Positions 27,430 to 54,287 of a stretch of 64,000 nt of DNA are shown in pieces. The notes beneath the pieces were generated by a model, which saw nothing but the letters and a program-made list of their open reading frames with translations, searched no databases and was not told the DNA's origin. Source of the DNA: Bombella favorum (GTDB taxonomy: Bacteria > Pseudomonadota > Alphaproteobacteria > Acetobacterales > Acetobacteraceae); the NCBI RefSeq assembly GCF_014048475.1, contig NZ_NWUS01000003.1, positions 62,001-126,000 on the forward strand, given 5' to 3'. The position numbers and the translations under genes were made by a program. Each line of letters opens with the position of its first letter. Position 1 is the stretch's first letter.

Positions 27430-28374
27430 TCAGCCCTGCGCCTCATCCCCTAGATGAGCCTGCCCTCGTTCTGCTGCTAGCTGTGCCTGACGCTGCCGCT
27501 CACGATAACGCTGTCGCTGAGCATCCGTTCTCTGTCCGTAACAGTGCGGGCAGCTCACACCTTCCTCATACTGGGGCGACTCTTTATCTTCCACACTGAT
27601 GGGTGCACGACAGGCATGGCAGAGGTCATACTTGCCCAGTTTCAACCCGTGCCCAACTGACACACGCTGGTCGAACACGAAACATTCCCCATCCCACAGG
27701 CTTTCTTCCTCTGGAATCTCTTCCAGATATTTCAGGATGCCACCCTTGAGATGGTACACATCGTCCACCCCTTCCTGCCGGGCAAAGGCAGTGGATTTTT
27801 CGCACCGTATGCCCCCCGTGCAGAACATGGCGATCTTCGGTGTACGGCCCTGTGCCTCCACCTCTTTCCGCCAGTTGCGGAACCACTCGGGGAAGGCACG
27901 GAATGTCTTCAGGTTCGGGTCCACAGCGCCGCGGAAGGTGCCAATGGCTACTTCGTAGTCGTTGCGGGTATCCATCACGACCGTATCAGGGTCAGAAATC
28001 AGGGCATTCCAGTCCTTCGGCTCAACATAACGGCCAACACAGACATGGGGGTCAATATCCGGCTGTCCCATCGTGACGATCTCTTTCTTCAGCCGCACTT
28101 TCATACGCAAGAAAGGCATCGTCTTCGCACGGGACTTCTTGTAATCGAACCCGGCACAGCCTGGCAGGCTGTCGATATAAGCCAGTACGGCATCAATGCC
28201 CGCATCTGGCCCGGCGATCGTGCCGTTAATGCCCTCACGGGCCAGCAGCAAACTGCCTTTGACACCCTCCTTCTGGCATATCTCCAGAAGCGGTTCACGC
28301 AGGGCTTTATGATCCTCAAACGCCGTAAAATGATAAAGAGCGGCCACACAGACCGGCAGAGATGTTATCGTCAT
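27430..28374 (-). CDS. trhO: Rhodanese-domain tRNA uridine-34 hydroxylase (TrhO/YceA)
   Basis: A 314-residue TrhO-type protein, which introduces the hydroxyl group of 5-hydroxyuridine at tRNA position 34. An N-terminal acylphosphatase-like domain ([12 protein letters not shown] and [14 protein letters not shown]) precedes a rhodanese domain with [14 protein letters not shown] and the active-site loop [11 protein letters not shown]. The C-terminal zinc-type cysteines (CHACRAPIS and CPHC) are also usual. A Gln/Arg-rich tail ends the protein. It shares a terminator with the convergent copper receptor and seems unrelated to the neighbouring PKS cluster. Confidence 0.95.
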
Positions 28375-28487: not shown

Positions 28488-30005
28488 TTAAAGTTTCCAG
28501 TAAACTTCATGCCGATGCTCATACCCTTGCCGCCCTGCCACTTCTGCGACCTCTTTCACCCGCTCCACATCGTCAGGCCACGGCTCACCAGCCGCCACGG
28601 CGGGCGGAACAAGGTCATGATCCCGACAAAGCTTCTTAATGACAGACAACACATAAGACGTGCTGATATTCCGCGTACATTCAAAAGCACGCTCTGTCCC
28701 TTTATGACGGGGGCAGAACAGATAGTCGTTATGCTGGAAAGGCGTCCGCAGATCGTGCCAGCAGCTATTACAACCATGATTACTGAACACACGGTACGGC
28801 GTCTGGAACTCATTGATCGGGTCTGTAAAACCGCTGATCATGACAACAGGTGTTCCAACAGCCCAAGCCAGCCATGAAAGGCCGGAAGACAGGCCGACAA
28901 AAAAATCAGCATGTTTTATCCAGCGGGCCCGTTCTGCTAGCGGACGCTCCCCGGTTTCATCCTCCACACCGTTGGGCATATGGTTCCATGTGATGTTATG
29001 GCCGACCACGGGGTCCTTATCGATACAGATAACACGATAGCCCATCTTTTTCAGATACTGGACCGTATCCAGCCATCCTAGCGGGTTCTGCCACATCTTG
29101 CAGGCACAGGATGCCTGTACGGCCACCACCACATAAGGCTCCTCTATCGGGCGGGTATCGGCTTTCTCGATAGCCACCCGGGGGCGGATCTCTGTCGGGT
29201 CCACACCCATAATCCATCCGGCTGTCCGATGCAGGCCAACAGCACGGAAGTCCCGTGGCTGCCAAGCCTGTTCCTCATCATGGAAAAACAGTCCGATATA
29301 ATAGCTGGCGTAAAACTCGCCTTTCACTCCGACAAACTCCGCCTCCTTCAGGAAGCGAATATGCGGGTAGGCCGGCCCCATGAGGTCGACAATCACTTCG
29401 CTCGTCACGACGGTCATGTCGCAGTCATGCTTCTGTCCGAACCGATCGATATACGGTACCCACCCCAACGGGTCCCCTAACGTCCCGGTCGGCATGATGA
29501 TGGCGACTTTCTTCCGCCGCGCATCATATTCATGCGTCCAGACAAGTTCATCACCCTCAAACAGCTCGATCAACACCTGTAGAAAGTATTTCTTACGGGA
29601 AGAGACATATTCTCCTCCAGATTTACCATCATACAGGCAGGTATCTGTCTCCATATCCCAGAAGCGCACACGCCACTGCTCACCTTCTGGCATCTTGATC
29701 CGGATACCGAGGTTGAAGTCATAGCGCAGGCCGTAGGGCCCCTCCTGTGTGGGCTCCATCTCCGGTGCTGGGAATGGGAGGTTGGGCAGCCGCTCTATGC
29801 CGTCATCTTTCTTATTCAACGGCCCTTTGCCACTTGCCTCGAGAGAAGCAGACGGCAGTTCAGCCGCAGAGAAAACCATGCGGTCCTCTTGCCCTTCCAC
29901 ACCGGAATCCACTGTTTCTTCCGTAAAGGGTAGTATGGAGGCAGAGGAAGGTGGCCTCAGGGCGACGATATCCTGCAAGACACGTTCCGTTTTCTTCTCA
30001 GTCAT
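28488..30005 (-). CDS. BAHT-type (TibC/AAH-like) glycosyltransferase, copy 1
   Basis: A 505-residue glycosyltransferase from the preferred ATG. The body is a GT-B enzyme of the bacterial autotransporter heptosyltransferase type: IIMPTGTLGDPLGWVPY, GWLDTVQYLKKMGYRVICID, a sugar-nucleotide site around FVGLSSGLSWLAWAVGTPVVMISG, and a four-cysteine finger (CNSC, then YLFC and FEC) that binds iron in TibC. An N-terminal extension of about 100 residues is acidic and low-complexity, unlike copy 2. Its ATG overlaps the preceding stop as ATGACTGA, so translation is coupled. Known family members add heptose to serine of autotransporter repeats; none is visible here, so the acceptor may differ. Confidence 0.85.
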   Translation of the reverse strand: MTEKKTERVLQDIVALRPPSSASILPFTEETVDSGVEGQEDRMVFSAAELPSASLEASGKGPLNKKDDGIERLPNLPFPAPEMEPTQEGPYGLRYDFNLGIRIKMPEGEQWRVRFWDMETDTCLYDGKSGGEYVSSRKKYFLQVLIELFEGDELVWTHEYDARRKKVAIIMPTGTLGDPLGWVPYIDRFGQKHDCDMTVVTSEVIVDLMGPAYPHIRFLKEAEFVGVKGEFYASYYIGLFFHDEEQAWQPRDFRAVGLHRTAGWIMGVDPTEIRPRVAIEKADTRPIEEPYVVVAVQASCACKMWQNPLGWLDTVQYLKKMGYRVICIDKDPVVGHNITWNHMPNGVEDETGERPLAERARWIKHADFFVGLSSGLSWLAWAVGTPVVMISGFTDPINEFQTPYRVFSNHGCNSCWHDLRTPFQHNDYLFCPRHKGTERAFECTRNISTSYVLSVIKKLCRDHDLVPPAVAAGEPWPDDVERVKEVAEVAGRQGYEHRHEVYWKL

Positions 30006-31173
30006 TCTGTGACAGCTCCCCAAACCCCGGAATCTGCTCAATGGTTGTTTTCACCTGTGTGAAGGAAATCCCTCGGGAACATTCAAACATCTTTTCTGTC
30101 CCCTTATGACGCGGGCAGAAGAAAGGATCGCTCGGTTTCAACTCGATATTCACATCATTGGCACAGCCATTGCAGACATTCCTATTAATGATGCGATACG
30201 GCGTATAGAACTCGTTATATGGCTCGGTATAGCCGCTGATCATGACCACCTTGGCACCAGCAGCCCAAGCCAGCCACGCCAGACCGGAAGAGGTTCCCAC
30301 GAAGAATTCAGCATGCTGCAACCAGCGGACACGCTCTGGCAATGGGCGGTTCCCGGTCTCGTCCTGCGCCCCATGAGGGATGGTCCGGATGGCTGTGATA
30401 GGCCCAGATACACGGTCCTTATCAATACAGACAACCTTGTAGCCTTTCTCCTTCAGGAAGCGGATCAGATCATACCAGCCGCGAGGGTTATTCCAGTATT
30501 TACTAAGCCCTGATGCCTGCGCCCCGATGCAAACGTAGGGCTCTTCCATCGGGCGGCCCCCTGGCTCAACAACGACACGGGGCTTCCGCTCCTGCGGCGA
30601 CAGCCCCAATATATAGGCACCCATGTGGGAAAGACCGGTCTGCCGGTAATCATTAGGCTGGCACGTAAACTCCGTATCCCCAAAAAAGACCAGCACCTTG
30701 TAATGGGCGTAATATTGCCGGTCGCTCTGATCATCCTCATCAATAAACCGAATATGGGGGTAGGCATCCTCAAAAAGAGGAATCATGGCCTTATTTACGA
30801 AGAAACTCGCACGACAGCCATGCTTCTCCACAAAGCTAGCGGCCTGCCCAATCCAAGCGATATGGTCACCCAGCCCGCCCATATACATCGTTATGAGGAC
30901 TTCACGATCCTTCAGATCGCAAACATGGGTGAAAAACTCTTCCCCATCCTTCCAAATGGTGATCTCAAAGCGGACATAATACCGCTTCAAGCTCTGCACC
31001 ATGCCAGCCCCGTTGATCTCCTGAAAGAATAGGACCGTATCTGTATCCAGGTCCCGCAACCTTACTGCCCAAAGGGCTCCCTCCGGCACACAGACACGAC
31101 AGCCATCATTGAAGTCATAGCGGATCCCTCCGGGACCAGCCTGCGTCAAAACAATCTTGTCATTGTCACTCAC
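29998..31173 (-). CDS. BAHT-type (TibC/AAH-like) glycosyltransferase, copy 2
   Basis: A 391-residue paralogue of the adjacent gene. It shares the small N-terminal domain (IRYDFNDGCRVCVPEG), VLITMYMGGLGDHIAWIGQ, GWYDLIRFLKEKGYKVVCID, GTSSGLAWLAWAAGAKVVMISG and the four-cysteine finger (CNGC, FFC, FEC). I prefer the GTG at 31173 because AGGAG lies 7 bases upstream; the open frame continues to 31233 without a site. In strict BAHT enzymes the cysteine finger coordinates iron and is needed for dodecamer assembly. Two unequal copies could form a hetero-oligomer or act in sequence on one acceptor; this is inference. Confidence 0.85.
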   Translation of the reverse strand: MSDNDKIVLTQAGPGGIRYDFNDGCRVCVPEGALWAVRLRDLDTDTVLFFQEINGAGMVQSLKRYYVRFEITIWKDGEEFFTHVCDLKDREVLITMYMGGLGDHIAWIGQAASFVEKHGCRASFFVNKAMIPLFEDAYPHIRFIDEDDQSDRQYYAHYKVLVFFGDTEFTCQPNDYRQTGLSHMGAYILGLSPQERKPRVVVEPGGRPMEEPYVCIGAQASGLSKYWNNPRGWYDLIRFLKEKGYKVVCIDKDRVSGPITAIRTIPHGAQDETGNRPLPERVRWLQHAEFFVGTSSGLAWLAWAAGAKVVMISGYTEPYNEFYTPYRIINRNVCNGCANDVNIELKPSDPFFCPRHKGTEKMFECSRGISFTQVKTTIEQIPGFGELSQND

Positions 31174-31245
31174 GGCCACACTCCTGCACACATGCCTCCT
31201 CTTCTCTCTCCCGGGCGAGCATGCACCCTGCACCGCAGTTTCTGC

Positions 31246-33072
31246 TCATAGCGGTGTTTCTCCCCATGCCAGAATCTCGACCCTCTCCAGTTCATCCAAG
31301 CCGAAGCACTGCTCCTGCACGATAGGAAGACGCCCCGCCACAAAAGCCTCGGACGTTGCAGAAAGGCGAATCTTACCACTTGGCGTACGATGCACACCGC
31401 CCTGCCGCACCAGAACACAACGCAATTTTCGGGCTGGACAGGCTTGCCGTATGGCACGGGCCATCCCAGCCAGAAGCTTCTCATGACCGGTTTCCTGCCT
31501 CACTTGCGCCAGAGACAGCTCACCCATCACACACAACTCTCCCTCGTGCCGAAACACCGTCACACCCCGGCTGCTGAAGACAGGACAAGCCTGCCGCACG
31601 GCCTGTGCCAGATCATCCGGGTCATAACGCTGCTCACCAATAAGGAGACTATTCTCCATACGGCCCGTCACGAAGAGATGTCCCTTCACGAGGAAGCCTG
31701 AATCCCGGCTGCGGAACCACTTGCGGCCCTCTGCATCGGTGCTGAAACGCTCCCGATTTTCCTGCTCCCGGTTCAGATAACCCGGTGTCACACAGGGGCC
31801 GCTCAACCACAACTCACCAACCTGACCATCCGGTAGGCTATCACCGGTCTCGGGGTCCACAACAAGGATGGCATGCTCTTCTATCACGCAGCCACAATCG
31901 GCCAGAACACGCCTGTCATGCTCATCATGCGGTGGTTCAGCACGTCCCTCCGCCAGCCCGGCCCGAGAGAATGTTGCGAAGGACACGGCCTCCTCACCAT
32001 CCCGGCTACCACTCGTGATCATCAAAGTTGTCTCGGCCATGCCATAACCCGGCCGAAGGACGGAGGGATCCAACCCAAGAGGGGCATACCGTTCCAGAAA
32101 CCGGTTTACTGTCCCCCGTTCGATCATCTCAGCCCCGATGACGGACCATTTCCAGCAGGACAGGTCCAGCCCTTTCAAAGCAGAGTCCGGCACATTGCGC
32201 GCTAAAAGCTCATAAGCGAAATTGGGACCAATGGAGAAATTGACCCGATACCGGTCTATCGCCTGCACCCAACGTTCCGGGCGAGCAATAAAATGCTCCG
32301 GTTTCATCAACCATGTAGGCCCGCCCGTTGCTATCCCGAACATGAGGCTCACCAGTCCCATATCATGAGACAAAGGCAGCCATATCAGCCCCAGCCTACC
32401 AAGCCAAATATCGCTACGAATCACCAACAGGTGCAGGTTGGTCCCCAGGTTACGATGCGTGATCTTCACCCCACGGGGCCGCCCGATGGAGCCGGACGTA
32501 TATTGCACAAGGGCCACGTCATCCAGCTCTGCCACGCAACGGCGGTGGAGCGGCTCGGCACTTTCGGCCCCCTCAATGGGAATCCATTTCACCTTGCGAG
32601 CCCGGCCTGCGGCCTGGCGCCGAAACCCCATCAGGACCTCCCGCGGCCCCAGCACAGCCACAGCCTCGGAGTCCTCCAGAATATCGAACAGCCGGTCCAC
32701 ACTACCAACCATGCTGGGACAGACACCCGATACCGGCACGGTATTGGCGTAGACACAGCCAAAGAAACCAGCCACGGCCGCCGTGTCATTCTCAAAACAG
32801 AGCAGAACCCGCTCCCGTTCCGACACAAAGCGATCCAAAAGCCCCGCTACCCGGCAGGCCCAATCATGGGCCTGCTGAAAGGTCAGGGTGTCGGCCACTT
32901 CCAGCGTCTCATCCAGCACGACACACTGTAGCTGCTCCGGCCTTTCCATGGCCCGGAAGCTTAACATCTCATCCAGCCGATGGCTGTGCCGGTCCAATAT
33001 GGTGAAGCCCTGCTCGTATTGCTCAATCACATAACCGGACTGATGGACGATGCGACATGTCCGGGCGGTCAT
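31246..33072 (-). CDS. Fatty acyl-AMP ligase (FAAL)
   Basis: A 608-residue adenylate-forming enzyme of the FAAL subgroup (FadD32-like), which activates a fatty acid as acyl-AMP and passes it to an acyl carrier protein rather than to CoA. Core motifs are VQYTSGSIGRPRGVKITHRN, WLPLSHDMGLVS, IGPNFAYELLARN and GYGMAETTL, all diagnostic of FAALs. A C-terminal lid carries the likely catalytic lysine in TPSGKIRLS. Its ATG overlaps the PKS stop (ATGA), so the two are co-translated; the simplest reading is that it loads the starter acyl chain on the PKS. Confidence 0.92.
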   Translation of the reverse strand: MTARTCRIVHQSGYVIEQYEQGFTILDRHSHRLDEMLSFRAMERPEQLQCVVLDETLEVADTLTFQQAHDWACRVAGLLDRFVSERERVLLCFENDTAAVAGFFGCVYANTVPVSGVCPSMVGSVDRLFDILEDSEAVAVLGPREVLMGFRRQAAGRARKVKWIPIEGAESAEPLHRRCVAELDDVALVQYTSGSIGRPRGVKITHRNLGTNLHLLVIRSDIWLGRLGLIWLPLSHDMGLVSLMFGIATGGPTWLMKPEHFIARPERWVQAIDRYRVNFSIGPNFAYELLARNVPDSALKGLDLSCWKWSVIGAEMIERGTVNRFLERYAPLGLDPSVLRPGYGMAETTLMITSGSRDGEEAVSFATFSRAGLAEGRAEPPHDEHDRRVLADCGCVIEEHAILVVDPETGDSLPDGQVGELWLSGPCVTPGYLNREQENRERFSTDAEGRKWFRSRDSGFLVKGHLFVTGRMENSLLIGEQRYDPDDLAQAVRQACPVFSSRGVTVFRHEGELCVMGELSLAQVRQETGHEKLLAGMARAIRQACPARKLRCVLVRQGGVHRTPSGKIRLSATSEAFVAGRLPIVQEQCFGLDELERVEILAWGETPL

Positions 33073-36000
33073 GCCTCCCCTCCAGCGGCCTGCACCCCTT
33101 CCAGAGCAACAGTACCACCCTGCTGGGCCATCACCACCGCCTGCCGCAGCAAGCTGCGAGCCATTTCGATGATGGTTTCATTCCGAGCCAGCAACACAAG
33201 GGAGACATCGACACCAAATTCCGAGCGAATGGCTGTCTGAAGCTCCACACCAGCGAGGGAATCAATCCCCAGTTCGGAGAGACGGGCACCATCCTCAATC
33301 GTCTCCGGCTCCACCTGCAGGACGGACCCAAGCTGCTGCTTGAGACGCAGCAGAACATAATCCAGACGCTCATTCTCTGGCATGTTCATCAGCAGCTGGA
33401 CAGAGTCCGATATGCCGCCTTTATGGCTTTCCTGCTGCAAAAGTGCGAAGCGTGCAGAGTTTTTCAGCCACGCCAGTGCCCCAAAGACCTGCACCCAATT
33501 AAGGTCCACTAGAGACACATCGCTGCGGTCCACGCCGTAAAGCACCGGCAAATAAGCCAGAGAATCCGCCGCTGTCATGGTCTTAATCCCGGCAACATCA
33601 AACATGCGCCCGGCAGCATCACTTTCGGTCAGCATCCCCACGTCGCCGATGGCACCCCACCCCACAGCCAAAGCAGGTAGCCCCTGCTGACGCCGATTTT
33701 CTGCCAAAGCATTCAGGTAGCTATTAGCCGCCATGTAGCTGCTCTGCCCGAGATTACCAATCTCCGCCGTAAAGGAGGAATAAAGCACGAAGTGGTCCAG
33801 CTCCAGCCCACGGGTCGCCTCATCTAGCGCCTGTGCGCCCAGCACCTTAGGTGCCATGACGGTGGCAATATTGGCCGCCCCCACCTTGCTGATGAGCTGA
33901 TCATCCACCACACCGGCAGCATGGAAGACACCCCGCAGCGGCACTTCATCCCGAGCCAGCTTTTTGACCAGATCGTGCACGGCCTTCCGATCCGTTACAT
34001 CCAGACGATGGGTCACTACCTTGCCGCCGACACTCTCGGCCAGCTTTTTCAGGGTAGCGATGGCATGTTTCCGTTCCGGGTCCTTCGGCAGAGACCGGCC
34101 TACCAGATGAAGCACCCCTGCCCCCCGAGACAGAAGATATTCTGCCGTCTTAAGGCCAAAACCACCCATGCCACCTGTGATCAGGTAAGAACCCTGACGA
34201 CTGAACCCCGGCTGAACCCGTGGCAGCGGACGAGCCTTGATGCCACTCATATCCTCATAAGAGAGCATAATCTTGCCAATATGGCGTGAGGACATGAGGT
34301 AGCGGAAGGCCTCGGAAGCCTCAGCAGCTGGGAAGATGCGTGTCTGCGGGAAGGAGAACTTCCCCTGACGGGCCAGAAGCAGAATCTCGTCCATGACGCC
34401 ATAAAGCTTCTTATGCGGCATCATCCGGTCCATATCGAAGGAGAAATAGGCCAGATTTTCATTGAACGGCATCAGTTCCAACGCCCGATGCTCTACAATA
34501 TCTCGCTTACCGATCTCCAGAAAACGGCCCATCGGTGCCACAAGCCGCAAGCTGTGGATCATCGCCTCGCCGGGCAGGGAGTTCAGCACCACATCAACGC
34601 CTCGGCCATTCGTGGCCTCACGGATGCCATCCACAAACTCCAGCGTTCGGGAATCCCAGACACCGGCACATCCCTGCTTACGCAGATAGTCCCGCTTCTC
34701 TGGATTACCAGCTGTACTGTAGATCACTGCCTTTTTCAGCTGGGCAATTTGGATGGCAGCCTGCCCCACACCACCAGCCCCGGCATGGATGAGAACACTC
34801 TCCCCTTCCTGAAGCTGAGCCAGATGAATCAGCGTGTAATAAGCTGTCACGAACACCAGCGGCAGGCCAGCGATCTGCTCCAGTGAGAAAGGCAGCTCCT
34901 CTCCCGACAAAGGCAGGGCACAATAAGCCAACTCGCTCGCCTTCACGATGCGGCGGGACGTAAAGCTATCCGGGTAGACAAGCGCCAGCAGGTCGCCGGG
35001 CTTCATGTCCTCAACCCCTTCACCAACCGCCTCGACCTCTACAACACATTCCAACCCAAGGGCATCGCCGCTAAAGGTCCCTTCTGTCACGCTCTCCGGC
35101 AGGAGAGACATGGCCTTCAGCACGTCCTTGAAATTAAGACTGGCCATACGTGTGCGCACCTTGACCTCACCCGGCCCTGGCTCCGACACAGCAAAAGCCT
35201 GCCATGTGACCCCTTCCAACGTACCGGAGCGGCTGCCTTCAAGACGGACACCGATAGTGCCATCATCCGCACCACCCATGATCTCTTCCAGCGGGACGGG
35301 CTGGGGTTCTGGCTCCAACGGCGGCGACACCAGCCGCTGGACCATACGTTCTACCCCTTCCCCTGCGGCATCCTCTTCTGCCCCCTTGGTGGCCGGACGC
35401 AGCCAGACTGTATCTTCTGACGTATCCTCAAGCACAAGCTCGGCAGCAATATCGTCTAGCAGGGCCTCTGCCCCCTCAGCCGGCACATCGACATAACGAA
35501 TAGCGAGGTCCAAAACACGCTCGGCTGCGGCACCACGGAACAGACCCTGAAACGCCCGCTGAAGTGCCTGTGCGTCCCCGTCCCTGCCATAGGCGCCACG
35601 GGTAACAATAATGACCGGCAAACGCCGTTTACGGTTTCGTGTTGGTACACGCTGGAGCAACGCCACGCAGGCGGCCATGTCATCAAGACACTGCTGATAA
35701 TCAGCACCAGCCTGCGGGAACAGGACCAACGCCCGCTGCTTGGACAAGAATGGTTCGTGATCCAGAACATCTGCAAGCTCGGCACCATCCAGCTGGGAGC
35801 TAACAGTCAGCTCTGCACCATTATCCTTCAACACATCAGCCAACTGGGCAGCCAGACCACTCCCTTCACCCAGCAGGGTAATAGCCTGCGGTTCGCTCAA
35901 CAGGATCTGACGCTCTGCGCTCATCCAGTTCGGCGCATAGATCAGCCTAGCCGCAGAAGAAGCCTCATGCCCGCTACGCGCCACACGGCGGCAGCACAGG

Positions 36001-39000
36001 CCCAGTACCTCACAAAGCAGTTCCCCTTCCGGCGTGAACAGGCGCATATCGGCCATAATCTTGCGCTGTGTCCGCAAGGTGGGGGTCACCTTTACATAGG
36101 CCCGTGATACTTTCTGGCCCATATAGCTGACACGGTCGATTGAGGCCGGAACATACACATCCTTCTGCTCCTCAAAGGGGAAGGCCCCAATGAGCGCATG
36201 CATAGCACCATCCAGCAATGCCGGATGCAGGTGATAATCCTCCAGCGTGGCGACCTGTTCATCCTTGAGGGCAATCTCCGCTACAGAATAGCCATCCCCC
36301 CGGTACAGGTACTGCATAGTTTGAAAGGCTGGACCATAATTCAGCCCCATAGCGGCGAGAGCCTCGTAAACTTCGGCCCCTTCAAAGCGGGTTGCCCCTT
36401 TACACAAGGCCTCGAAATCGAACGTTTTATTTTCCGTCGATATCGTGCACCATGGGGCAGCCTGAAGAACGGTCGCCTGACCATGTGTCTGCCAGTCGCC
36501 ATTCCACGCCACTGTTTCGCTATCGAAAACAAGACGGCGGGTCGCCATGTCAAACCGCCACATGACAACCGGTGCCTGTCCCTCCTGCACCATCAACGGC
36601 GTGCTGATCGTGATGTCCTCCACCACGGCCGGGGTCTTAGCCTCCAACTGGAAATGCGCCGCAAGAGTTGCCTCGACATAAGCAGCAGCTGGGAATAGGG
36701 CCATACCGTGGACCTTATGGTCCATCAGCCATTCCATCAGAACCACCCCAATGTCAGCCCGCCATGCCCGGCTTTCCAGCAGGCTCGGCGTACCCAGAAC
36801 AGGATGAACCTGTTCATCCAGACGGTCACGGCGGGAGGCTTCGGTCTCCAGCCACATCTTGCCACCTTCTTCCCAACGGTAATAAGGCCGCTCAATCAGT
36901 TCCGGCTTCAAAACATAACGCCAGTCCCATTCAGCACCGGCAAGAGCCAGACGGATCAAGGCACGCAGAAGCCCATCTGCATCGTCTTGCTTGCGGCGCA
37001 GAGACGGTATGACGGCAACCTCATAGCGGCCTTCCTCCGCACAGCCCGTTACAGACGTACCCAGAACCGGATGAGCTGCGAGCTCAAGGAAAATAGCGTG
37101 ACCATCATTCAGCATGGCCCGCATAGCATCATGGAAGAGGACGGGCTCCCGAGCATTGGCATACCAATAAGCAGCATCATGCCGTTCATCTTCGCCCCAC
37201 AGCTTACCCGTAACCGTAGAGTAAAGCGGAACTTCCGGTGTTTTCGGGCTAATATGAGCCAGAGAGGACAGCATATCCTTCTCAATCGCCGCCATTTCCG
37301 GGCTGTGATACGGCACTTCCACTTTCAGAAGCCGTACGAACACGCCTTCCTTTGCGCAGTCTGCCTCCAGCACCTTTAGGTCCTTAAGAGGACCCGCCAC
37401 CGTGCAGGAATCGCCACTATTGATAGCCGCAATGGCAAGCCTGCCCTTAAAGCCTTCCAGCCGCTCTTCTAGCAAGCTACGGCCCATCCCAACGGCCAAC
37501 ATAGTGCCACGGCCTGCCAATGTGGCCTGAAGACGGCTACGATGATAGATGACCGTCACGGCATCTTCTAACGTCAGCGCACCGCTGACATAGGCAGCAG
37601 CTACCTCGCCCACGCTATGGCCGACAATGGCACCGGGCATTACGCCATGACGGGTAAAAAACGCCGCCAAACAAATCTGCACGAGGAAGATGGCAGGCTG
37701 GGCGACCTCCGTCTCCTGTATGCGGGACTTGGACTCCGGCTTCAGTAACTCTTCCTGCAGAGACCAGCCTGCCAGTTTTGTGAACAGCTCATCACAACGC
37801 TGCGCCAGATTGCGAACCTCTACCGGCCCTTTCCGCAGGAGGTAACGGCCCATTCCCCACCACTGGGGCCCCATGCCGGAGAAAAGGAAAACCGGCTTTG
37901 CAGCATCATCCACAACGGCCTTGCCGGTAAACAGAGCCGGGTGTGCCCTGCCTTCAGCCAGAGCATGCAAGGCATCACGGGCCTGTATAATTTCTTCTTC
38001 ACCCTGTGGCGGAAGAATCACCGCCCGATGGCGGAACCACGTCCCATAGCGTGCTGCAGAGAAGCAAAGTGCCTCCCACAGGCTACGTTCAGCGGGACCA
38101 GCCTCCAGCCGTTCCGCATAGGCTTTGGCCATAAAACCAAGAGAGGCTTCCGAGAATGTGCTGAGCAGCAGAGGCACCCGCCGCATAAAGCCGGCAGGCC
38201 GCACTCCCTTCAACTTATTATCACGCACCGTTCGGCGCTGCGCTGCGGTCCGCTCTTTTTCGGTCGGGCGGCGCAACAGGGCGACAGCATTTGTTCCGCC
38301 ATAACCAAAGGAATTGACGACAGCATAAAGCCTGTCACGCTCTGGCAAGGCGACTGCTTCCCCCTGTGCAACCTGCACGCGGTATTCATCAAACGGAATG
38401 ACCGGATTCAGCTCTTTCAAATTAGCCTGTCCGGGCACCTTACCATGCTCAAGACACAGCATGGTCTTTAGGACAGCCGCAGCGCCAGCAGCAGCCTCCA
38501 TATGACCCAGATTGGCCTTTACGGAACCAATAAGAACCTTCTGCCCTTCTGGTTGATACTGCCCAATGGCCTTTGCAATGGCTTTAACTTCGATCGGGTC
38601 GCCAACAGGTGTTCCCGTCCCATGCGCTTCCACATAGACCACATCCTGCGCCGAAACATCAGCCCGATGCAGCACATCACGGATCAGCGTTTCCTGCGCA
38701 TCGGCGTCCGGCATGGTTAGCACAGGGGTGCGGCCGTCCTGATTCACGCCAGAACTACAGACAACACCTTTAATATCATCACCATCCCGCATGGCATCTT
38801 TCAGCCGTTTGAGCATGAGAATGACACAGCCTTCCCCACGCCCATAGCCGTCTGCATCTGCAGCGAAAGACTTGGAACGGCCATTCTTGGCAAGGAAGTG
38901 CCCCTTCGTCATAAGCATGGCTGTCTGCGGGGAGGCCATGAAATTCACACCACCGGCCAGAGCCACGTCACACTCACCAAGACGCAGGCTGTTACAGGCC

Positions 39001-39575
39001 TGATGCAGAGCCACCAGAGATGAAGAGCAAGCCGTATCCATGGCGATGGCCGGCCCTTTTAACCCGAAGACATGGGCAATACGGGCCGCATACATGGTCA
39101 TACCGGCAGAGACTGCGGCAAACTGATCCCGAATTTGCGGCTGCATGAAGGGGCTGCCACACTGGACAAGCTGATCCTGCGTGAAGCTACCTATGAAAAC
39201 GCCCGTTTTGGTCCCCTCGAGCGTGCGCGCAACCACATTTGCATTTTCTATAGCGCGCCACGCCACACCCAGAAGGAGACGCTGCTGGATGTCCATCACC
39301 ATCCCCTCACGGGGAGAAATACCAAAGAACAGCGGCTCGAACTGATGGTCCTCCTGGTGCATGAAGTGACCATATTCCATGGTTGTCTTGCCCGGGGTCT
39401 GGTCGACCGGGTCATAAAACCGTTTACGCCCCCAACGGTATTCCGGAATAGCCACGCAGCCGTCCCGGCGCTCCAACAGGAACCGCCAGAGGGAGTCGCC
39501 ATCCGCCAGTCCAGCCGGCAGAACACAGCCAACGCCAATAATGGCAATTTCATCGGGATTATATGTTTGACTCAT
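33069..39575 (-). CDS. Fully reducing type I polyketide synthase (KS-AT-DH-ER-KR-ACP)
   Basis: A single-module, 2,168-residue synthase from the ATG with AGGA-rich upstream sequence (12 more codons are open to 39611). Domain order: KS (about 9-430; Cys183 in DTACSSS, His in VEAHGTGTPVG and KANLGHMEAA), AT (GHSVGEV near 652; VPYHS at the specificity position), DH (HKVHGMALFP near 950, second motif DGAMH), ER (HAGAGGVGQAA near 1597), KR (GGMGGFG near 1800; YSSFTAEIGNLGQSSYMAAN) and ACP (Ser near 2102 in LGIDSLAGVEL). There is no thioesterase. The layout is that of MAS/HglE-like iterative synthases that elongate fatty acids. With the coupled FAAL it would make a saturated long-chain acyl product. 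Confidence 0.95.
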   Translation of the reverse strand: MSQTYNPDEIAIIGVGCVLPAGLADGDSLWRFLLERRDGCVAIPEYRWGRKRFYDPVDQTPGKTTMEYGHFMHQEDHQFEPLFFGISPREGMVMDIQQRLLLGVAWRAIENANVVARTLEGTKTGVFIGSFTQDQLVQCGSPFMQPQIRDQFAAVSAGMTMYAARIAHVFGLKGPAIAMDTACSSSLVALHQACNSLRLGECDVALAGGVNFMASPQTAMLMTKGHFLAKNGRSKSFAADADGYGRGEGCVILMLKRLKDAMRDGDDIKGVVCSSGVNQDGRTPVLTMPDADAQETLIRDVLHRADVSAQDVVYVEAHGTGTPVGDPIEVKAIAKAIGQYQPEGQKVLIGSVKANLGHMEAAAGAAAVLKTMLCLEHGKVPGQANLKELNPVIPFDEYRVQVAQGEAVALPERDRLYAVVNSFGYGGTNAVALLRRPTEKERTAAQRRTVRDNKLKGVRPAGFMRRVPLLLSTFSEASLGFMAKAYAERLEAGPAERSLWEALCFSAARYGTWFRHRAVILPPQGEEEIIQARDALHALAEGRAHPALFTGKAVVDDAAKPVFLFSGMGPQWWGMGRYLLRKGPVEVRNLAQRCDELFTKLAGWSLQEELLKPESKSRIQETEVAQPAIFLVQICLAAFFTRHGVMPGAIVGHSVGEVAAAYVSGALTLEDAVTVIYHRSRLQATLAGRGTMLAVGMGRSLLEERLEGFKGRLAIAAINSGDSCTVAGPLKDLKVLEADCAKEGVFVRLLKVEVPYHSPEMAAIEKDMLSSLAHISPKTPEVPLYSTVTGKLWGEDERHDAAYWYANAREPVLFHDAMRAMLNDGHAIFLELAAHPVLGTSVTGCAEEGRYEVAVIPSLRRKQDDADGLLRALIRLALAGAEWDWRYVLKPELIERPYYRWEEGGKMWLETEASRRDRLDEQVHPVLGTPSLLESRAWRADIGVVLMEWLMDHKVHGMALFPAAAYVEATLAAHFQLEAKTPAVVEDITISTPLMVQEGQAPVVMWRFDMATRRLVFDSETVAWNGDWQTHGQATVLQAAPWCTISTENKTFDFEALCKGATRFEGAEVYEALAAMGLNYGPAFQTMQYLYRGDGYSVAEIALKDEQVATLEDYHLHPALLDGAMHALIGAFPFEEQKDVYVPASIDRVSYMGQKVSRAYVKVTPTLRTQRKIMADMRLFTPEGELLCEVLGLCCRRVARSGHEASSAARLIYAPNWMSAERQILLSEPQAITLLGEGSGLAAQLADVLKDNGAELTVSSQLDGAELADVLDHEPFLSKQRALVLFPQAGADYQQCLDDMAACVALLQRVPTRNRKRRLPVIIVTRGAYGRDGDAQALQRAFQGLFRGAAAERVLDLAIRYVDVPAEGAEALLDDIAAELVLEDTSEDTVWLRPATKGAEEDAAGEGVERMVQRLVSPPLEPEPQPVPLEEIMGGADDGTIGVRLEGSRSGTLEGVTWQAFAVSEPGPGEVKVRTRMASLNFKDVLKAMSLLPESVTEGTFSGDALGLECVVEVEAVGEGVEDMKPGDLLALVYPDSFTSRRIVKASELAYCALPLSGEELPFSLEQIAGLPLVFVTAYYTLIHLAQLQEGESVLIHAGAGGVGQAAIQIAQLKKAVIYSTAGNPEKRDYLRKQGCAGVWDSRTLEFVDGIREATNGRGVDVVLNSLPGEAMIHSLRLVAPMGRFLEIGKRDIVEHRALELMPFNENLAYFSFDMDRMMPHKKLYGVMDEILLLARQGKFSFPQTRIFPAAEASEAFRYLMSSRHIGKIMLSYEDMSGIKARPLPRVQPGFSRQGSYLITGGMGGFGLKTAEYLLSRGAGVLHLVGRSLPKDPERKHAIATLKKLAESVGGKVVTHRLDVTDRKAVHDLVKKLARDEVPLRGVFHAAGVVDDQLISKVGAANIATVMAPKVLGAQALDEATRGLELDHFVLYSSFTAEIGNLGQSSYMAANSYLNALAENRRQQGLPALAVGWGAIGDVGMLTESDAAGRMFDVAGIKTMTAADSLAYLPVLYGVDRSDVSLVDLNWVQVFGALAWLKNSARFALLQQESHKGGISDSVQLLMNMPENERLDYVLLRLKQQLGSVLQVEPETIEDGARLSELGIDSLAGVELQTAIRSEFGVDVSLVLLARNETIIEMARSLLRQAVVMAQQGGTVALEGVQAAGGEA

Positions 39576-39631
39576 TCCTGTCCTATTTCCTGTATCCGAG
39601 CGTCTCGGCATTTATCCTGCACTATAAAAAA

Positions 39632-41149
39632 TCAGCTCTTCCGGGCGCCAAGCTCGTTCCGGATATAATCTTTCAGCGCCATTTTCAGCCGGTCCCTATC
39701 CACGTGCCCTTCTGATGTCCGTGGTATTGTGGGCACCCATATCATGGTAACGGGCGGCAAGGCGGCATAACGCTTCCGTAACTGAGCCGACAGTGCCTGT
39801 CCGTCAAACGTCTCATGCGAGACAATGGCGGCGTAGAAATGCTCCTGCCCCTGCTCATCCGTCATCACGAAAACGCCAGCGTCACGGATACGCTCTTCGG
39901 TACGCAGGAGGTCCTCCAGCACGCCTAGATCAAATTTGGCACCGCCCATATTGACCAGCTCATCCGTTCGCCCACACAAATAAAGCACGCCTTTATCGGA
40001 CAGGTATCCCCGATCCCCCGGGTAAAACCAGCCGTCTCTAAAACGCTGTGCCGCATCGGAGTTTCCATCAACATAGCCATGCACGACACCACCACCCCGG
40101 ATGCGAATATTACCGACCTTCCCAGCCGGGAGCCTACGCCCTTCAGCATCCACGATATCGACATCCACCCACGGCAGAGGCGCACCAACCTCATCCTCGG
40201 TCTGGCGCAACTCGGCAGGCATCGCTGCAACAAGCCCGCTTTCATCTGTGCCGTAGACGACCTGCACTTGTAGCGTAAAACGTTCCCTCGTTTCCTTCAG
40301 AACCGCATCGGAAAGTTTGCCACCCACAACGCTAAGATAAATGTGGTTCATGGCCCGCCCCTGCGGGGGCAGAGAGCGCAAAAGATGCTCAAGATGAACC
40401 GGGGTCATGACAATCATAAGAGCAGAAGCCTGCATAACCTCCGCCCCAATACTCTGGGCATCACTGCTACGCAGGGTCGTGCCACCCGCAAGGGCAGCCC
40501 CAGTCATAAGGAATCCGCTCAGGGACTGAGGGCCGACCGTACAAAGCAGCTGTGGCTTTCCCACCATCCGGCCGCGGCCTCTGGTATTGCGGAAGAAATA
40601 CTCCACCATGTCATGATAAATGATCCGGTGCAGCTGCCCCTCTACCTCACCGAAGCTAAGTTCCAGCAGGTGCATATCCCGTCCCGTGCCGCTAGCCAGC
40701 GCAGCACGACAAGGCGCAGACCGCTCCACCGGAACAGGAGGATAATAACAGGAGGCATCATCTTCCTCCACCTTGGCAAGGGCACGACTGAACCAGTCTT
40801 CACCCAGCACAAGCCGCCCTTCACCAGGTGCCAGCCCACTCTCCCCATGCAGGATGATAAGGTCTGGCTGCAATATGGCCAGCTCTTCATCCGAAACTTC
40901 CCCGTTGGACAAAGAGGCCGAGGCAAGCCCCAACCGGCCCAGAGCCAGTGTCAGGCACCAGTGCCGCCATGTATCAGGACATTGCACCGCAACACGGCGA
41001 AGGCCCAGGGTTCGCAACCCTTCCAGCTTATGAGCCAGACGGCTAACTGTTGCCTCCAGCAAGGCATAAGACCGCTTACGGGAGAGGCTGCCAAAAGCCA
41101 CCTCGTCACCCATAGTCCGGGCATTATAGGCCACAAACCGATCCAGCAT
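39632..41149 (-). CDS. Divergent acyl-adenylate (ANL) ligase-like protein lacking the usual lysines
   Basis: A 505-residue ANL-superfamily protein. The middle and C-terminal motifs are recognisable: VVYGTDESG for the adenine loop, GWFYPGDRGYLSDKGVLYLCGR for the hinge and aspartate, and VNMGGAKFDLGVLEDLL. However the phosphate-binding loop, normally TSGTTGxPKG, is replaced by LASGTGRDMH without the lysine. The C-terminal catalytic lysine (usually GK) is His in TSEGHVDRDRL. It may be catalytically altered, may work only in the thioester half-reaction, or may be a scaffold. It lies directly upstream of the PKS gene (56 bases from the preferred PKS start). Confidence 0.82.
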   Translation of the reverse strand: MLDRFVAYNARTMGDEVAFGSLSRKRSYALLEATVSRLAHKLEGLRTLGLRRVAVQCPDTWRHWCLTLALGRLGLASASLSNGEVSDEELAILQPDLIILHGESGLAPGEGRLVLGEDWFSRALAKVEEDDASCYYPPVPVERSAPCRAALASGTGRDMHLLELSFGEVEGQLHRIIYHDMVEYFFRNTRGRGRMVGKPQLLCTVGPQSLSGFLMTGAALAGGTTLRSSDAQSIGAEVMQASALMIVMTPVHLEHLLRSLPPQGRAMNHIYLSVVGGKLSDAVLKETRERFTLQVQVVYGTDESGLVAAMPAELRQTEDEVGAPLPWVDVDIVDAEGRRLPAGKVGNIRIRGGGVVHGYVDGNSDAAQRFRDGWFYPGDRGYLSDKGVLYLCGRTDELVNMGGAKFDLGVLEDLLRTEERIRDAGVFVMTDEQGQEHFYAAIVSHETFDGQALSAQLRKRYAALPPVTMIWVPTIPRTSEGHVDRDRLKMALKDYIRNELGARKS

Positions 41150-41236
41150 CGTTATCCCCCCACACGGCCCTGCTAGAAGCCCACCAGCACACTTCCCCGA
41201 CTGGTAACCAGCAGGCCCATATATTAACAGATAACT

Positions 41237-41242
41237 ATTATA
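41237..41242 (-). promoter_or_regulatory. Possible -10 box for the ligase-PKS transcript
   Basis: The minus strand reads TATAAT here, inside an AT-rich 149-base gap between the GT4 gene and the ligase gene. No convincing -35 at 16-18 bases was found, so this is tentative. Confidence 0.25.
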
Positions 41243-41298
41243 TCGTTGATGCGCAGCGAACGCATCCCTGCATCACAGCTTTTTGCCCGCCCAACGAC

Positions 41299-42255
41299 TT
41301 AATCCCAAAGCTGGCTATACACCTGCTGCAACCGCACACTGACCTTATCTGGAGTATAAGGCTGCGCTGCTGCCTGTCCCTGCGCTACCATCTTCCTGAT
41401 AACAGCACTACCGGAGGCACAGCCCTCCAACGCCATTGCCAGGGAGTCCACCATACCTTCCACATCTTCGGGAGAATGCCAGAAACCATTCTGCGAGGTG
41501 GCATAGTCGCTCCCCCCACCACCGTGGCACCCCACAACGAGACACCCCGCCGCCATGGCCTCCAACGCTGTGATGCCAAGGGCCTCCAGCCGTCCCAGCG
41601 ATAGACAAACAGCCGACTCACCCATGAGAGCCGCCACTTCCTCTTCCTTTCTCTCCTGGAGTAGCACCCATGGAACAGAAGAAAACTGCGGGTATTTAAG
41701 TTTCAGCATATCTTGAAGCAGCGTAGCATAACGCGGCAGCCCGCCCTGCTGGGGCCACTTCCATTCAGCACAGACAATCTGAAGTTTCTTCTGCCTTGGC
41801 CTGAACAGATTACCATCCACCACAGGCGGGGTAACCTGAACATTCTCCAGCCCTAGAACACGCTGCAACAAATGCGCCGCCCCTACCCCCGGGGCTAAAA
41901 CCTGCGTCACCCCCAATTCCGCCAATTTTTGGGCTGATGGGCCATATGTGAAGAAATAATAAGGATTCTGGCAGAAAATGACCTTCTTCCCAATCATGGG
42001 CGTGCTGATCATATCCGCATACCATTCCCTCAACACCTCAGGGAAAACGAATATATCCTGCCTCGTGAGGTTAGTGACTGTCTCGCACATCAAAGGGTGC
42101 ATCTCTTTACCCAGCCATGAAGGCACACCCTCTGCCTGAAGAACCTGCACATGAAACCCCGCCTGGCGAAGCAACAAAGCATGACGGTACATTGTCTTGA
42201 TGCCACCCGAGACAAGGTCCCGCGGAAAGCAGTTCAGAAAAATAATGCGCCTCAC
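41299..42255 (-). CDS. GT4-family glycosyltransferase
   Basis: A 318-residue retaining GT-B glycosyltransferase. The N-terminal acceptor domain starts with IIFLNCFPRDLVSGGIKTMY. The C-terminal nucleotide-sugar domain has SLGRLEALGITALEAMAAGC, matching the family E-x7-E signature, then GCHGGGGSDYA. It probably transfers a sugar to the lipid or polyketide product made by the downstream genes. The reading frame starts with GTG at 42255 with only a weak G-rich upstream site. It is the first gene of the cluster, 149 bases upstream of the ligase, and may have a separate promoter. Confidence 0.85.
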   Translation of the reverse strand: MRRIIFLNCFPRDLVSGGIKTMYRHALLLRQAGFHVQVLQAEGVPSWLGKEMHPLMCETVTNLTRQDIFVFPEVLREWYADMISTPMIGKKVIFCQNPYYFFTYGPSAQKLAELGVTQVLAPGVGAAHLLQRVLGLENVQVTPPVVDGNLFRPRQKKLQIVCAEWKWPQQGGLPRYATLLQDMLKLKYPQFSSVPWVLLQERKEEEVAALMGESAVCLSLGRLEALGITALEAMAAGCLVVGCHGGGGSDYATSQNGFWHSPEDVEGMVDSLAMALEGCASGSAVIRKMVAQGQAAAQPYTPDKVSVRLQQVYSQLWD

Positions 42256-42338: not shown

Positions 42339-42395
42339 ACTAATATTAAGTAAACGTAACGACCTATAAAATCGTTTCTCCGCTTTAATATTAGT
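42339..42395. repeat. 11-bp inverted repeat between dsbD-like gene and GT4 gene
   Basis: ACTAATATTAA (42339-42349) and its exact complement TTAATATTAGT (42385-42395) flank 35 bases. The second arm overlaps the stop codon of the dsbD-like gene. The all-AT cores argue against a terminator; an operator pair or promoter region for the GT4/PKS cluster is possible. Confidence 0.4.
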
Positions 42396-44613
42396 CTGTT
42401 TCACTTCCCCGGTTAGGGAACAAAAATTTCAGCACAAGGCCAGGTGTCAAAATCTGCGGCAATATTTGCTCGGTCTCATGGGGGGGATAATACAGATAGA
42501 GGGGAACACCATCACGGCCATGATCCCGCAAAAATGCGGTAATCCGCTCATCGCGGCGGGTCCAGTCCCCTCGCAAAATGGTCACCCCATGCTGCCGGAA
42601 AGCCTGCCGGACAGAAGGAACATCCAACGCCACATGTTCATTAACCATACAGGTCACACACCAAGAGGCGGTCATATCCACAAACACGGCCCGCCCCTCT
42701 GCCCGCAGAGCCGCTAACCGCTCTGCCGAAAAAGGCTCAATGATCGGACCATCCGAGGCCTGCACTCCGGCTCCAACCTTTTCTGCAGTCATGGAGGACA
42801 CGTTAGACGCTTCCTCTCCCGCCATGACACTCCGCCCCAAGCCGGCAAGACAGACCAGCAAGCACAATAGAGCCAGCACACGGCAGACCAACACAGATCG
42901 GAACGCCTGACCAAGAATAGCCCACTGCTGGGCGAGCCCGTACAACCAGCCCCCCAGCCCCAGCAGTACAGCCCCTCCGGCCATCAGCACTACAGCGTCT
43001 CCTCCACGCTGCAGCACAGCAACCCAGAGCAGCCACACACAGCTTGCCAGCAGAGGAAACGCCAGAAGCTGCTTCAGCCGTTCCATCCATGCCCCCGGGC
43101 GAGGAAGACACCGAGCCAACCCCGGTACGAGTGCCAGCACGCAATAAGGTGCCGCCAACCCCAACCCCATAGCCAAAAAGATCAACAGCCCTGCCCATAC
43201 GGGCCCACCCAAGGCGGCGGCAATCGCTACACCCATAAAAGGTGCTGTACAGGGGGTCGCCACGATAACAGCCAACAGACCTGCCAGAAGGTCACTCGCT
43301 GGACCATGCCCAGCGGCCATCTCCCCTGCACGCCCAGCCAGACGCCCCCCTGTGATCTGGAACACCCCCAGCAGGTTGAGTGCCATGACAAATAACAGCC
43401 ACCCAACCCCGACCACAAAAGCCGATGACTGGAACTGAAACCCCCACCCTACAGAGGCTCCTCCATAACGCAGAGCGATCATCAACGCACCGAGAGCCGC
43501 AAAGCATCCCATGATCCCCCCGCTATAAAAGGCCGCACTCCGCCAGCGTGTCCGCCAACTTGCGCCCCCCATATGTGCGAAGGACAGAATCTTCATGGCC
43601 AGTACGGGAAACACGCAAGGCATGAGATTAAGAATGATACCACCCAGAAACGCCGAAAGCAGGCTGCCCCATATAGCCCGCTCCGTTTTACCCCCACCGG
43701 GTGCGGCAGGCTGCTCCACCTGCGCACTCCCAGAAACAGGCACAACCCCTACCTGAAGGGCCGACCGGTTACCTGCACCATCCACAAGCACAACGACACC
43801 AGCCATCGGCTTTTGCCAAAGAGGCGGATGAGCGGCGTAGGAATCTGGCTTCAGCTGCAAGGCTAACTGCCCAGCCTGAACGGAGAGAGCCTGCGGTACA
43901 TTCTGGGCAATCACGCCGCCTTCTTGTGGCATAAACCACGCCTGCCGCACCGTAGCAGGTGAAAGACCAGCACCACGCAAGGTCAGCACACCATCAGGGC
44001 CGATCTGCGCCGTGAAAGGAGACGCTTGAGGCATGGCCGCATCCGCCCGACGGAATAGCTCTGCCTCGGCCGCCTGCGGCACAGGGCCGGAAGAACGGGC
44101 GGGTAATGTGAGCGAAAACTCACCTTTTTCCGGCACGCAGACATCGGCACAAACAAGCCAATCTGCTTTGGCTGTAATCTGCACCTCGCCCGTATCCCGC
44201 CCCTGCACGGGCACCCGCACGGGCAGCACGACATCCCCCTGATAGGCATAGGCCATTAGCCCACCTTCCGAGACACGTTCTGGCACGGGCCATTCCACAC
44301 CGTCCGCTGTCCCGGTCCGGCTACCGCTCACCGTAACATGAATATGCGGAGCCTCACCGGCATCACCGGGATTCTGCCAATATGTATGCCAACCAGACTT
44401 TAGCTGGAGCCTTAGAGCAACACGCAGGCTACCTTTCCCGGGATCATCACCTGTTGGCGTTCCAACTGCATCCACCTCGCTGATGAGCGTCGCTTTAGTA
44501 TGGCTGGTCTCAACCGGCGTACTTTCTGCCGCCCAAGCCGGAGCCGATAATAATATCACCCCGCCCATCAGGGCCAGAACAGCCCCCATTGCCATACCAC
44601 TATACCGCTTCAT
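42391..44613 (-). CDS. DsbD/ScsB-family thiol-disulfide reductase
   Basis: A 740-residue membrane protein that carries electrons from cytoplasmic thioredoxin to periplasmic thiols. A signal peptide (ends near PAWA) precedes an N-terminal domain with the cysteine pair ADWLVCADVCVP. The eight-helix DsbD core has cysteines in NLMPCVFPVLAMK and VATPCTAPFMGVA, and a C-terminal thioredoxin domain has ASWCVTC. The N-domain pair resembles ScsB proteins linked to copper tolerance more than classical DsbD; this fits the copper receptor 15 kb away, but no direct link is shown. The ATG immediately follows the TAG of a 31-codon ORF. Confidence 0.9.
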   Translation of the reverse strand: MKRYSGMAMGAVLALMGGVILLSAPAWAAESTPVETSHTKATLISEVDAVGTPTGDDPGKGSLRVALRLQLKSGWHTYWQNPGDAGEAPHIHVTVSGSRTGTADGVEWPVPERVSEGGLMAYAYQGDVVLPVRVPVQGRDTGEVQITAKADWLVCADVCVPEKGEFSLTLPARSSGPVPQAAEAELFRRADAAMPQASPFTAQIGPDGVLTLRGAGLSPATVRQAWFMPQEGGVIAQNVPQALSVQAGQLALQLKPDSYAAHPPLWQKPMAGVVVLVDGAGNRSALQVGVVPVSGSAQVEQPAAPGGGKTERAIWGSLLSAFLGGIILNLMPCVFPVLAMKILSFAHMGGASWRTRWRSAAFYSGGIMGCFAALGALMIALRYGGASVGWGFQFQSSAFVVGVGWLLFVMALNLLGVFQITGGRLAGRAGEMAAGHGPASDLLAGLLAVIVATPCTAPFMGVAIAAALGGPVWAGLLIFLAMGLGLAAPYCVLALVPGLARCLPRPGAWMERLKQLLAFPLLASCVWLLWVAVLQRGGDAVVLMAGGAVLLGLGGWLYGLAQQWAILGQAFRSVLVCRVLALLCLLVCLAGLGRSVMAGEEASNVSSMTAEKVGAGVQASDGPIIEPFSAERLAALRAEGRAVFVDMTASWCVTCMVNEHVALDVPSVRQAFRQHGVTILRGDWTRRDERITAFLRDHGRDGVPLYLYYPPHETEQILPQILTPGLVLKFLFPNRGSETD

Positions 44614-54278: not shown

Positions 54279-54287
54279 GGAGGGCCG

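Follow-up and report, generated by a model that had tools for sequence, protein, structure and literature searches.

Introduction

Bacterial autotransporter heptosyltransferases (BAHTs) have been described as enzymes that modify strand-loop-strand-like (SLS) repeats; TibC is active as a ring built from back-to-back dimers, and AAH takes both ADP-heptoses (PMC4358343). An O-heptosyltransferase also belongs to a published "beta-group" type 1 polyketide synthase (PKS) cluster of the Acetobacteraceae, in which it is duplicated in the Bombella clade and of which the product is not known (PMC8776678). Here we analyze such a cluster in Bombella favorum, on a stretch of 64,000 nucleotides (contig NZ_NWUS01000003.1, positions 62,001 to 126,000; the window hereafter). 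Six open reading frames (ORFs) on its minus strand, from 42255 down to 28488, encode a GT4-type glycosyltransferase, a divergent ANL-fold protein, a PKS, a fatty acyl-AMP ligase (FAAL), and two BAHTs, BAHT2 and BAHT1, in that order; we refer to them as the block. We put the probability at roughly 0.55 that these genes form one system that heptosylates a surface protein with SLS-like repeats and a Hint domain and supplies the same pathway with a long-chain lipid.

The block has a PKS flanked by acyl ligases, an O-heptosyltransferase, and no pyridoxal phosphate (PLP) aminotransferase, as beta-group clusters do, and it shares with them the domain order KS-AT-DH-ER-KR-PP, an extra glycosyltransferase, a thioredoxin-like gene, and the Hint-domain proteins noted in Asaia (PMC8776678). 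An earlier reading of the window (the sequence-only reading) knew of no described system with this set of enzymes. That was partly wrong, as the clusters had been described with their heptosyltransferase and its duplication in Bombella; the section on these clusters does not name an acceptor, SLS repeats, a displaced Bombella orthologue, separate BAHT clades, or a lysine-less ANL protein. The published account also reads the thioredoxin as a sign that sulfur is involved, whereas the DsbD-like protein here looks like a mere neighbor. For the Bombella apis antifungal, the candidate source is a T1PKS cluster that has two adenylation domains (PMC8262860), and the cluster is reported from all Bombella genomes studied and from other acetic acid bacteria (PMC9147383). 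The organism group and the two adenylation-type genes around one reducing PKS agree with the block; the authors propose a secreted antifungal (PMC8262860), whereas the present gene set speaks for the cell surface.

Other systems resemble parts of the block. TibC and AAH with their SLS adhesins share the BAHT fold, the catalytic and iron-finger residues, and a partner with SLS-type repeats, degenerate in Bombella, but the block has two paralogues, one of them N-terminally extended, joined to a PKS and a FAAL, and its partner carries a Hint domain and a conserved tail at its C-terminus, with no autotransporter barrel found (PMC4358343). Hedgehog-type Hint proteins (PMC7906309) share the Hint Cys1, the T-x-E-H motif, and a conserved region after Hint; in the block-linked proteins, lipid ligation is hypothetical. 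Mycobacterial FAAL-PKS lipid systems of the Pks2/Mas type likewise place a FAAL beside a single reducing PKS, but the block is without a Pap-type acyltransferase or lipid exporter and is linked to protein heptosylation. In the limited literature collection that was searched, no paper on a Hint domain in Acetobacteraceae or in Asaia was found, Bombella heptosyltransferase and Acetobacteraceae O-heptosyltransferase led to PMC8776678 only, and strand-loop-strand with Hint gave only papers that are, by title and abstract, on other subjects.

Results

A predicted heptosyltransferase pair linked to the polyketide synthase

ORFs and profile matches bore out the gene content, order, and strand given by the sequence-only reading, and the two overlaps it reported are present, ATGA between PKS and FAAL and ATGACTGA between BAHT2 and BAHT1 (Table 1). 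Because of the latter overlap, we take the ATG at 30005, and not the TTG at 30041, as the start of BAHT1. Gaps of 20 bases separate ANL from PKS, 12 bases FAAL from BAHT2, and 149 bases GT4 from ANL. Separate terminators would have spoken for two unrelated units; a consensus scan, the only method applied, found no terminator-like site inside the gaps between block genes. That scan found 28 sites against a shuffled mean of 16.6, and any single site is weak evidence. All block genes are under purifying selection (dN/dS 0.055-0.108).

The block is conserved in related genomes. Among 299 genomes of the family, 29 have a FAAL match of at least 290 bits, a threshold chosen after viewing the list, at a gap between 295 and 270 bits. 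A BAHT is present in all 29 and in 59 of the 270 others (Fisher p 9e-18, uncorrected for ancestry). In 28 of the 29 fetched loci, which come from 28 relatives, a BAHT adjoins the FAAL; the exception, L047, is a second copy, and the other copy in the same genome (L048) has both genes. The PKS lies within the fetched stretch in 22 of the 29 loci, once as two ORFs. It would fall outside the stretch in the other seven, and past the ANL gene it was seen in the Asaia bogorensis record only. Five weaker FAAL loci (L050-L054) showed no BAHT within the sequence that was fetched. The block is present in eight named records: Acetobacteraceae B3987, Bombella apis MRM1, Bombella mellum, Acetobacteraceae ESL0709, Asaia bogorensis, Acetobacter sacchari, Acetobacter nitrogenifigens, and Commensalibacter melissae; five of them are also among the sampled genomes. 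Regarding its occurrence outside the Acetobacteraceae, among the ANL-profile matches listed (at least 79 loci, 51 of them mapped) the first eight carry the block and none of the 43 other mapped loci does. Among 337 genomes of the class, a single BAHT was found outside the family (G575:C22:18816-19937, 638 bits). Spread by plasmids was considered and rejected or at least weakened: in a tblastn search of 72,556 plasmid records, BAHTs occurred in 211 (170 of them from Escherichia), none spanning 80% of BAHT1, and the best FAAL match reached just 34%.

The flanks of the block vary by genus, with an aspartokinase and a methyltransferase in L071 and a helicase and a protease in Acetobacter. Since the block recurs across several genera with different flanking genes, it does not appear to be a chance neighborhood, produced by insertion of a PKS unit next to a BAHT that already stood between the TrhO and DsbD genes. 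Three loci (L175, L176, and L177) do have a BAHT beside DsbD and/or TrhO and no PKS, as such an insertion would suppose. However, the same gene content occurs away from TrhO and DsbD in L071, Acetobacter, and Asaia, the BAHTs of these three loci fall in the non-PKS clade described below, apart from the block BAHTs, and not one of the 29 genomes at the FAAL threshold is without any BAHT. We consider a chance neighborhood very improbable.

Both BAHTs exceed the 200-bit cut-off of TIGR04414, and for each of them TibC is the only relative in the PDB at E<=0.001. We aligned 28 BAHT1, 22 BAHT2, and 20 sampled non-PKS sequences; the split BAHT2 of L069 was excluded from the tree. Residues D110, K230, R286, and W305 of TibC and its four iron-binding cysteines are kept in all 70, the T226 position is S or T, and the P300 position is Ser in 69 of 70, as in AAH. 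The midpoint-rooted tree has three clades, PKS-linked BAHT1 (support 100/96), PKS-linked BAHT2 (100/100), and the sampled non-PKS enzymes (99/94), with BAHT1 and BAHT2 labels given by best match to the window copies. Because the PKS-linked BAHTs fall in separate clades, the enzyme pair is particular to the PKS block. Conservation of the BAHT genes without the PKS had been named as a finding that would count against a joint unit. At face value it holds, in the 59 genomes noted above, but the 20 sampled loci of this kind fall in a clade apart. Overall, co-directional and overlapping genes, the BAHT beside the FAAL, and the two clades of PKS-linked BAHTs agree with the view that the genes act as one unit.

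BAHT1 proteins carry N-terminal extensions of 65-118 residues with a short motif, VLQDIVAL in the window copy and IIDSILNF in the Asaia type. Where BAHT2 is present, the motif fits 21 of 22 BAHT1s; at Commensalibacter-type loci, which lack BAHT2, it fits none of six. The shuffled expectation is 0.05 over all 28, and by eye the motif was not seen in the N-termini of the 20 sampled non-PKS BAHTs. This suggests that the motif may bind BAHT2. It is a lead only, as the pattern was built from the same rows in which it was counted (a first pattern fitted just 8 of 28, and the second was written after reading the rows) and the six motif-less loci are one lineage. In genome G136, BAHT2 is split into two ORFs (L069:5002-6161, minus strand), and the adjoining BAHT1 is open.

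A protein with SLS-like repeats and a Hint domain is the likely acceptor

In several relatives, the operon itself encodes a protein that BAHTs would be expected to modify. Acetobacter sacchari has the genes for an SLS/Hint protein, ANL, PKS, FAAL, BAHT2, and BAHT1 all in one orientation; the first two gaps are 77 and 20 bases, and the next three junctions are 4-base overlaps. ESL0709 has DsbD, two GT4 genes, SLS-like/Hint, ANL, PKS, FAAL, BAHT2, and BAHT1. In Commensalibacter melissae, a 1870-residue Hint protein comes first in the block and BAHT2 is missing, and the Asaia bogorensis genes form a divergent pair of operons, one with two Hint proteins, ANL, and PKS and the other with GT4, BAHT2, BAHT1, and FAAL. 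A Hint protein occurs in 18 of the 29 fetched loci; the other 11 are nine from Bombella or a sister genus and two that are cut off beside the ANL gene. Among 12 distinct block-linked Hint genes scanned, the B. favorum gene included, Hint_2 scores above its cut-off in all 12. TIGR04415, the model named for SLS repeats, is above its cut-off in five (L047, L069, L076, L085, L086) and under it in five more (the B. favorum copy, L072, two in L084, and L078). Across the family, 82 of the 88 genomes with a BAHT match TIGR04415, and 85 genomes match it overall. A C-terminal autotransporter beta-barrel was found neither in these 12 genes nor in L087, where Pfam reported Hint_2 and, in some of the genes, AIDA repeats. 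In L076 and L078, ANL and PKS are separated by the SLS/Hint gene, and a further Hint frame opens the stretch.

The B. favorum genome (1.97 Mb, seven contigs) encodes five Hint_2 proteins, one of them with SLS-like repeats. This protein of 1342 residues is encoded at G000:C2:143099-147127, on a different contig from the block. Its repeats gave two single-repeat matches of 27.3 and 22.8 bits, 41 bits with their neighbors in a frame search, and there is a partial AIDA-I match. In a tree of the Hint region, it forms a sister branch to those encoded in the operons of L069 and L070 (97/94), within a group that includes L076 and L078 (100/98); taken together, the Hint proteins linked to the block do not make up a single clade there (six changes). 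All eight Bombella genomes have an orthologue (66-100%), as does G158 (54%). G101, a congener of G158 and G201, is without a block FAAL, BAHT, TIGR04415 match, or close orthologue of the protein. The gene has a dN/dS of 0.214 over a 983-codon part. Among the aligned Hint sequences, Cys1 is present in each of the 31 that extend to it, T-x-E-H is present in 32 of 32, and the region after Hint is conserved, with the motifs DDRR-LG and RWT-G-A in nearly all of the 32 rows. No significant match of the Hint part to a solved structure was found; the best PDB entry is a bacterial intein-like domain (E 1.3). The four other Hint_2 proteins (L055, L056, L057, and L059, on G000:C1 and C3) have 524-584 residues and the same C-terminal region; none has an SLS match.

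Linkage, phylogeny, and co-presence lead us to infer that the SLS-like/Hint protein is the acceptor of the BAHT pair. In Bombella, the orthologue is encoded away from the block, on another contig, and has degenerate repeats. Because Bombella encodes it there, it was missed when the window alone was read. The sequence-only reading rightly saw no autotransporter, thioesterase, phosphopantetheinyl transferase, or exporter in the block; profiles from Pfam and NCBIfam found no such domain in the six proteins. Elsewhere in the genome are the SLS-like/Hint gene and one phosphopantetheinyl transferase (PF01648, G000:C1:626502). An HldE-like gene is present as well, at 343.4 bits against a cut-off of 345.

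The sequence-only reading had instead thought it plausible that the heptosyl group goes onto a polyketide or lipid, a proposal that found no support, given the kept TibC residues and the SLS-like/Hint gene in the same operon elsewhere. Stated more broadly, the BAHTs or GT4 would glycosylate the PKS product and yield a heptosylated glycolipid. The tight operon with the PKS, the dedicated BAHT clades, and the presence of GT4 at many of the loci are in keeping with this. However, the closest solved relative, TibC, modifies proteins, and the checked residues are kept in 70 of 70 sequences; an SLS-like/Hint protein is encoded with the block, either in cis or in trans; and GT4 is missing between DsbD and ANL in three of seven Bombella relatives (L064-L066). 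A heptosylated polyketide is less likely than a heptosylated SLS-Hint protein, and we regard the glycolipid as quite unlikely.

The lipid module

The PKS is a highly reducing type I enzyme with the domains KS-AT-DH-ER-KR-ACP, all checked active-site motifs are present in the window copy, and it is the only PS-DH match in the genome. Its best model, NF041183 (Pks2/Mas type), gives 1106.8 bits against a cut-off of 2400. The best NCBIfam models of the FAAL include several FAAL models, all under their cut-offs. In L076 and L078, the PKS has about 2010 residues and is without the GHSxGE acyltransferase motif. Commensalibacter-type FAALs (L071, L074, L075, L077, L079, L042) have a C-terminal extension resembling part of a carrier protein; no Pfam carrier match was found in the FAAL of L071, the only extended one scanned.

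The A10 lysine of ANL enzymes serves adenylation and not thioester formation. It is kept in all 30 aligned FAALs, a control alignment from which the weaker loci L050-L054 were left out (three had rows to drop), and is absent in all 29 aligned homologues of the divergent ANL protein, where H, R, Q, F, M, S, or E stands instead (the row with S is L048, which has an odd C-terminus). The protein matches AMP-binding over residues 214-359 only and has A-x-G-T-x in place of the usual P-loop; it keeps the Y, E, and G of A5 and the G-D of A7. With a dN/dS of 0.076 against G118, the gene is, by this measure, not decaying. We would expect its product to handle the acyl chain made by FAAL and PKS.

If the PKS, FAAL, and ANL proteins instead made a free secreted polyketide, such as the proposed B. 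apis antifungal, the heptosyltransferases would be an unrelated or loosely linked protein-glycosylation unit. Spent medium of B. apis does inhibit fungi, for which the authors suggest a T1PKS cluster that has two adenylation domains (PMC8262860); the one PS-DH match of the B. favorum genome is the block PKS, B. apis MRM1 carries the block, and BAHTs also occur without a PKS. Nevertheless, the six genes include no exporter, thioesterase, or self-protection gene, genes overlap, the joint block recurs in several genera with different flanks, and the PKS-linked BAHTs form clades of their own. The cluster is also found in many acetic acid bacteria, and acids have been offered as the cause of the antifungal effect (PMC9147383). 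A secreted product with an unconnected glycosylation unit therefore seems unlikely to us.

Flanking genes and other observations

The block is flanked, on its own strand, by the gene for a DsbD-like protein upstream and that for TrhO downstream (Table 1). Both probably stand outside the system, as PKS-less BAHTs adjoin DsbD in L175 and L176 and TrhO in L176 and L177. GT4, with a weak Pfam match that is above the cut-off (36.6 bits against 26.4), adjoins the BAHTs in Asaia-type loci. Elsewhere in the window, a GmrSD-type restriction enzyme (PF03235, PF07510) is encoded at 54288-56093 on the minus strand, beside a UDP-glucose dehydrogenase gene. The region 54000-57000 has a GC content of 40-45%, far under the rest of the window, and this stretch looks acquired. 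A 593-residue ORF at 52497-54278 (plus strand) has no Pfam match at 1e-4.

Table 1. Features of the block and its flanks, in window coordinates.
Feature	Position	Strand	Basis
BAHT1, TibC-like protein O-heptosyltransferase with N-terminal extension	28488..30005	-	TIGR04414, 552.9 bits; ORF extendable to 30041
Motif VLQDIVAL near BAHT1 start, possible docking helix	29958..29981	-	Pattern count
ATGACTGA overlap, BAHT2 stop and BAHT1 start	29998..30005	-	Sequence
BAHT2, TibC-like protein O-heptosyltransferase	29998..31233	-	TIGR04414, 524.8 bits
Fatty acyl-AMP ligase (FAAL)	31246..33072	-	AMP-binding, 176.6 bits (Pfam)
ATGA overlap, PKS stop and FAAL start	33069..33072	-	Sequence
Iterative-type reducing PKS, KS-AT-DH-ER-KR-ACP, no MT, no TE	33069..39611	-	Pfam
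ANL-fold protein without A10 lysine and usual P-loop	39632..41149	-	Pfam, alignment
ANL codon at A10 position, His482 for Lys	39704..39706	-	Alignment
GT4-type glycosyltransferase, accessory	41299..42255	-	Pfam
DsbD-like thiol:disulfide interchange protein, flank, probably outside the system	42391..44613	-	Pfam
TrhO tRNA hydroxylase, flank, probably outside the system	27430..28374	-	NF001133, 316.2 bits
Terminator-like hairpin after TrhO, 13 pairs	27369..27399	-	Consensus scan

Discussion

In the mechanism that we propose, the BAHT pair would add heptose from ADP-heptose, in the cytoplasm, to Ser/Thr residues of a long beta-helical SLS-like protein. The acceptor would be the SLS-like/Hint protein, encoded on the other contig in Bombella and by the first operon gene elsewhere. 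BAHT1 and BAHT2 would probably form a mixed complex, held by the N-terminal motif of BAHT1, and GT4 may lengthen the heptose. Judged by the domains, FAAL would turn a fatty acid into an acyl-AMP and load the PKS, which would extend it to a reduced long chain. The lysine-less ANL protein would make no adenylate itself and more likely aids chain transfer or release. The lipid may serve the same SLS-like/Hint protein or its attachment to the cell; we place it in the same product because the block is without a thioesterase or exporter and because the operon starts with the acceptor in other genera. That the BAHT pair would heptosylate an SLS-like protein is a prediction well supported by the family evidence.

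Several observations weigh against a single system of this kind. Two of the 12 block-linked Hint genes, L071 (Commensalibacter-type) and ESL0709, have no TIGR04415 match, the repeats of the B. favorum protein are degenerate (20.8 bits in hmmscan against a cut-off of 30), and the orthologue in G201 is doubtful. Hint_2 is found in 226 of the 299 family genomes and is far commoner than the PKS. At least 12 of 20 sampled non-block BAHT loci (19 from block-less genomes and one from G173, which bears the block) have SLS or Hint neighbors and no PKS. Family models were run on the neighbors of two of the eight without an SLS/Hint neighbor, L166 and L177, and gave an aldehyde dehydrogenase and an RND permease. 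Because BAHT and SLS/Hint pairs exist without a PKS, heptosylation in itself does not require the lipid. Distance-matrix congruence and co-occurrence are uncorrected for shared ancestry, and that the lipid meets the protein at all is something we only infer.

A bolder version of the mechanism would have the Hint domain cut the heptosylated SLS-like fiber from the C-terminal part and join the fiber to the dedicated lipid of PKS, FAAL, and ANL, as a bacterial counterpart of Hedgehog lipidation that anchors a barrel-less adhesin. Because Hint proteins are common in the family without the block PKS, a direct link between lipid and Hint is a minority reading, and we hold it to be quite unlikely.

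Returning to a system that heptosylates the SLS-like/Hint protein and makes a lipid for the same pathway, what the analysis adds is a likely acceptor for an already reported cluster, which would make it a variant among BAHT/SLS glycosylation systems, one whose acceptor ends in Hint and which has a lipid module. A cluster of bee symbionts so far read as antifungal would become a testable surface-protein system with an acceptor, a glycosyltransferase pair, and a lipid module. This would have a bearing on what the PKS makes and on the protection of bee brood. If it is true that the lipid joins the protein, this would be a new mode of adhesin anchoring in bacteria and possibly a bacterial counterpart of Hedgehog.

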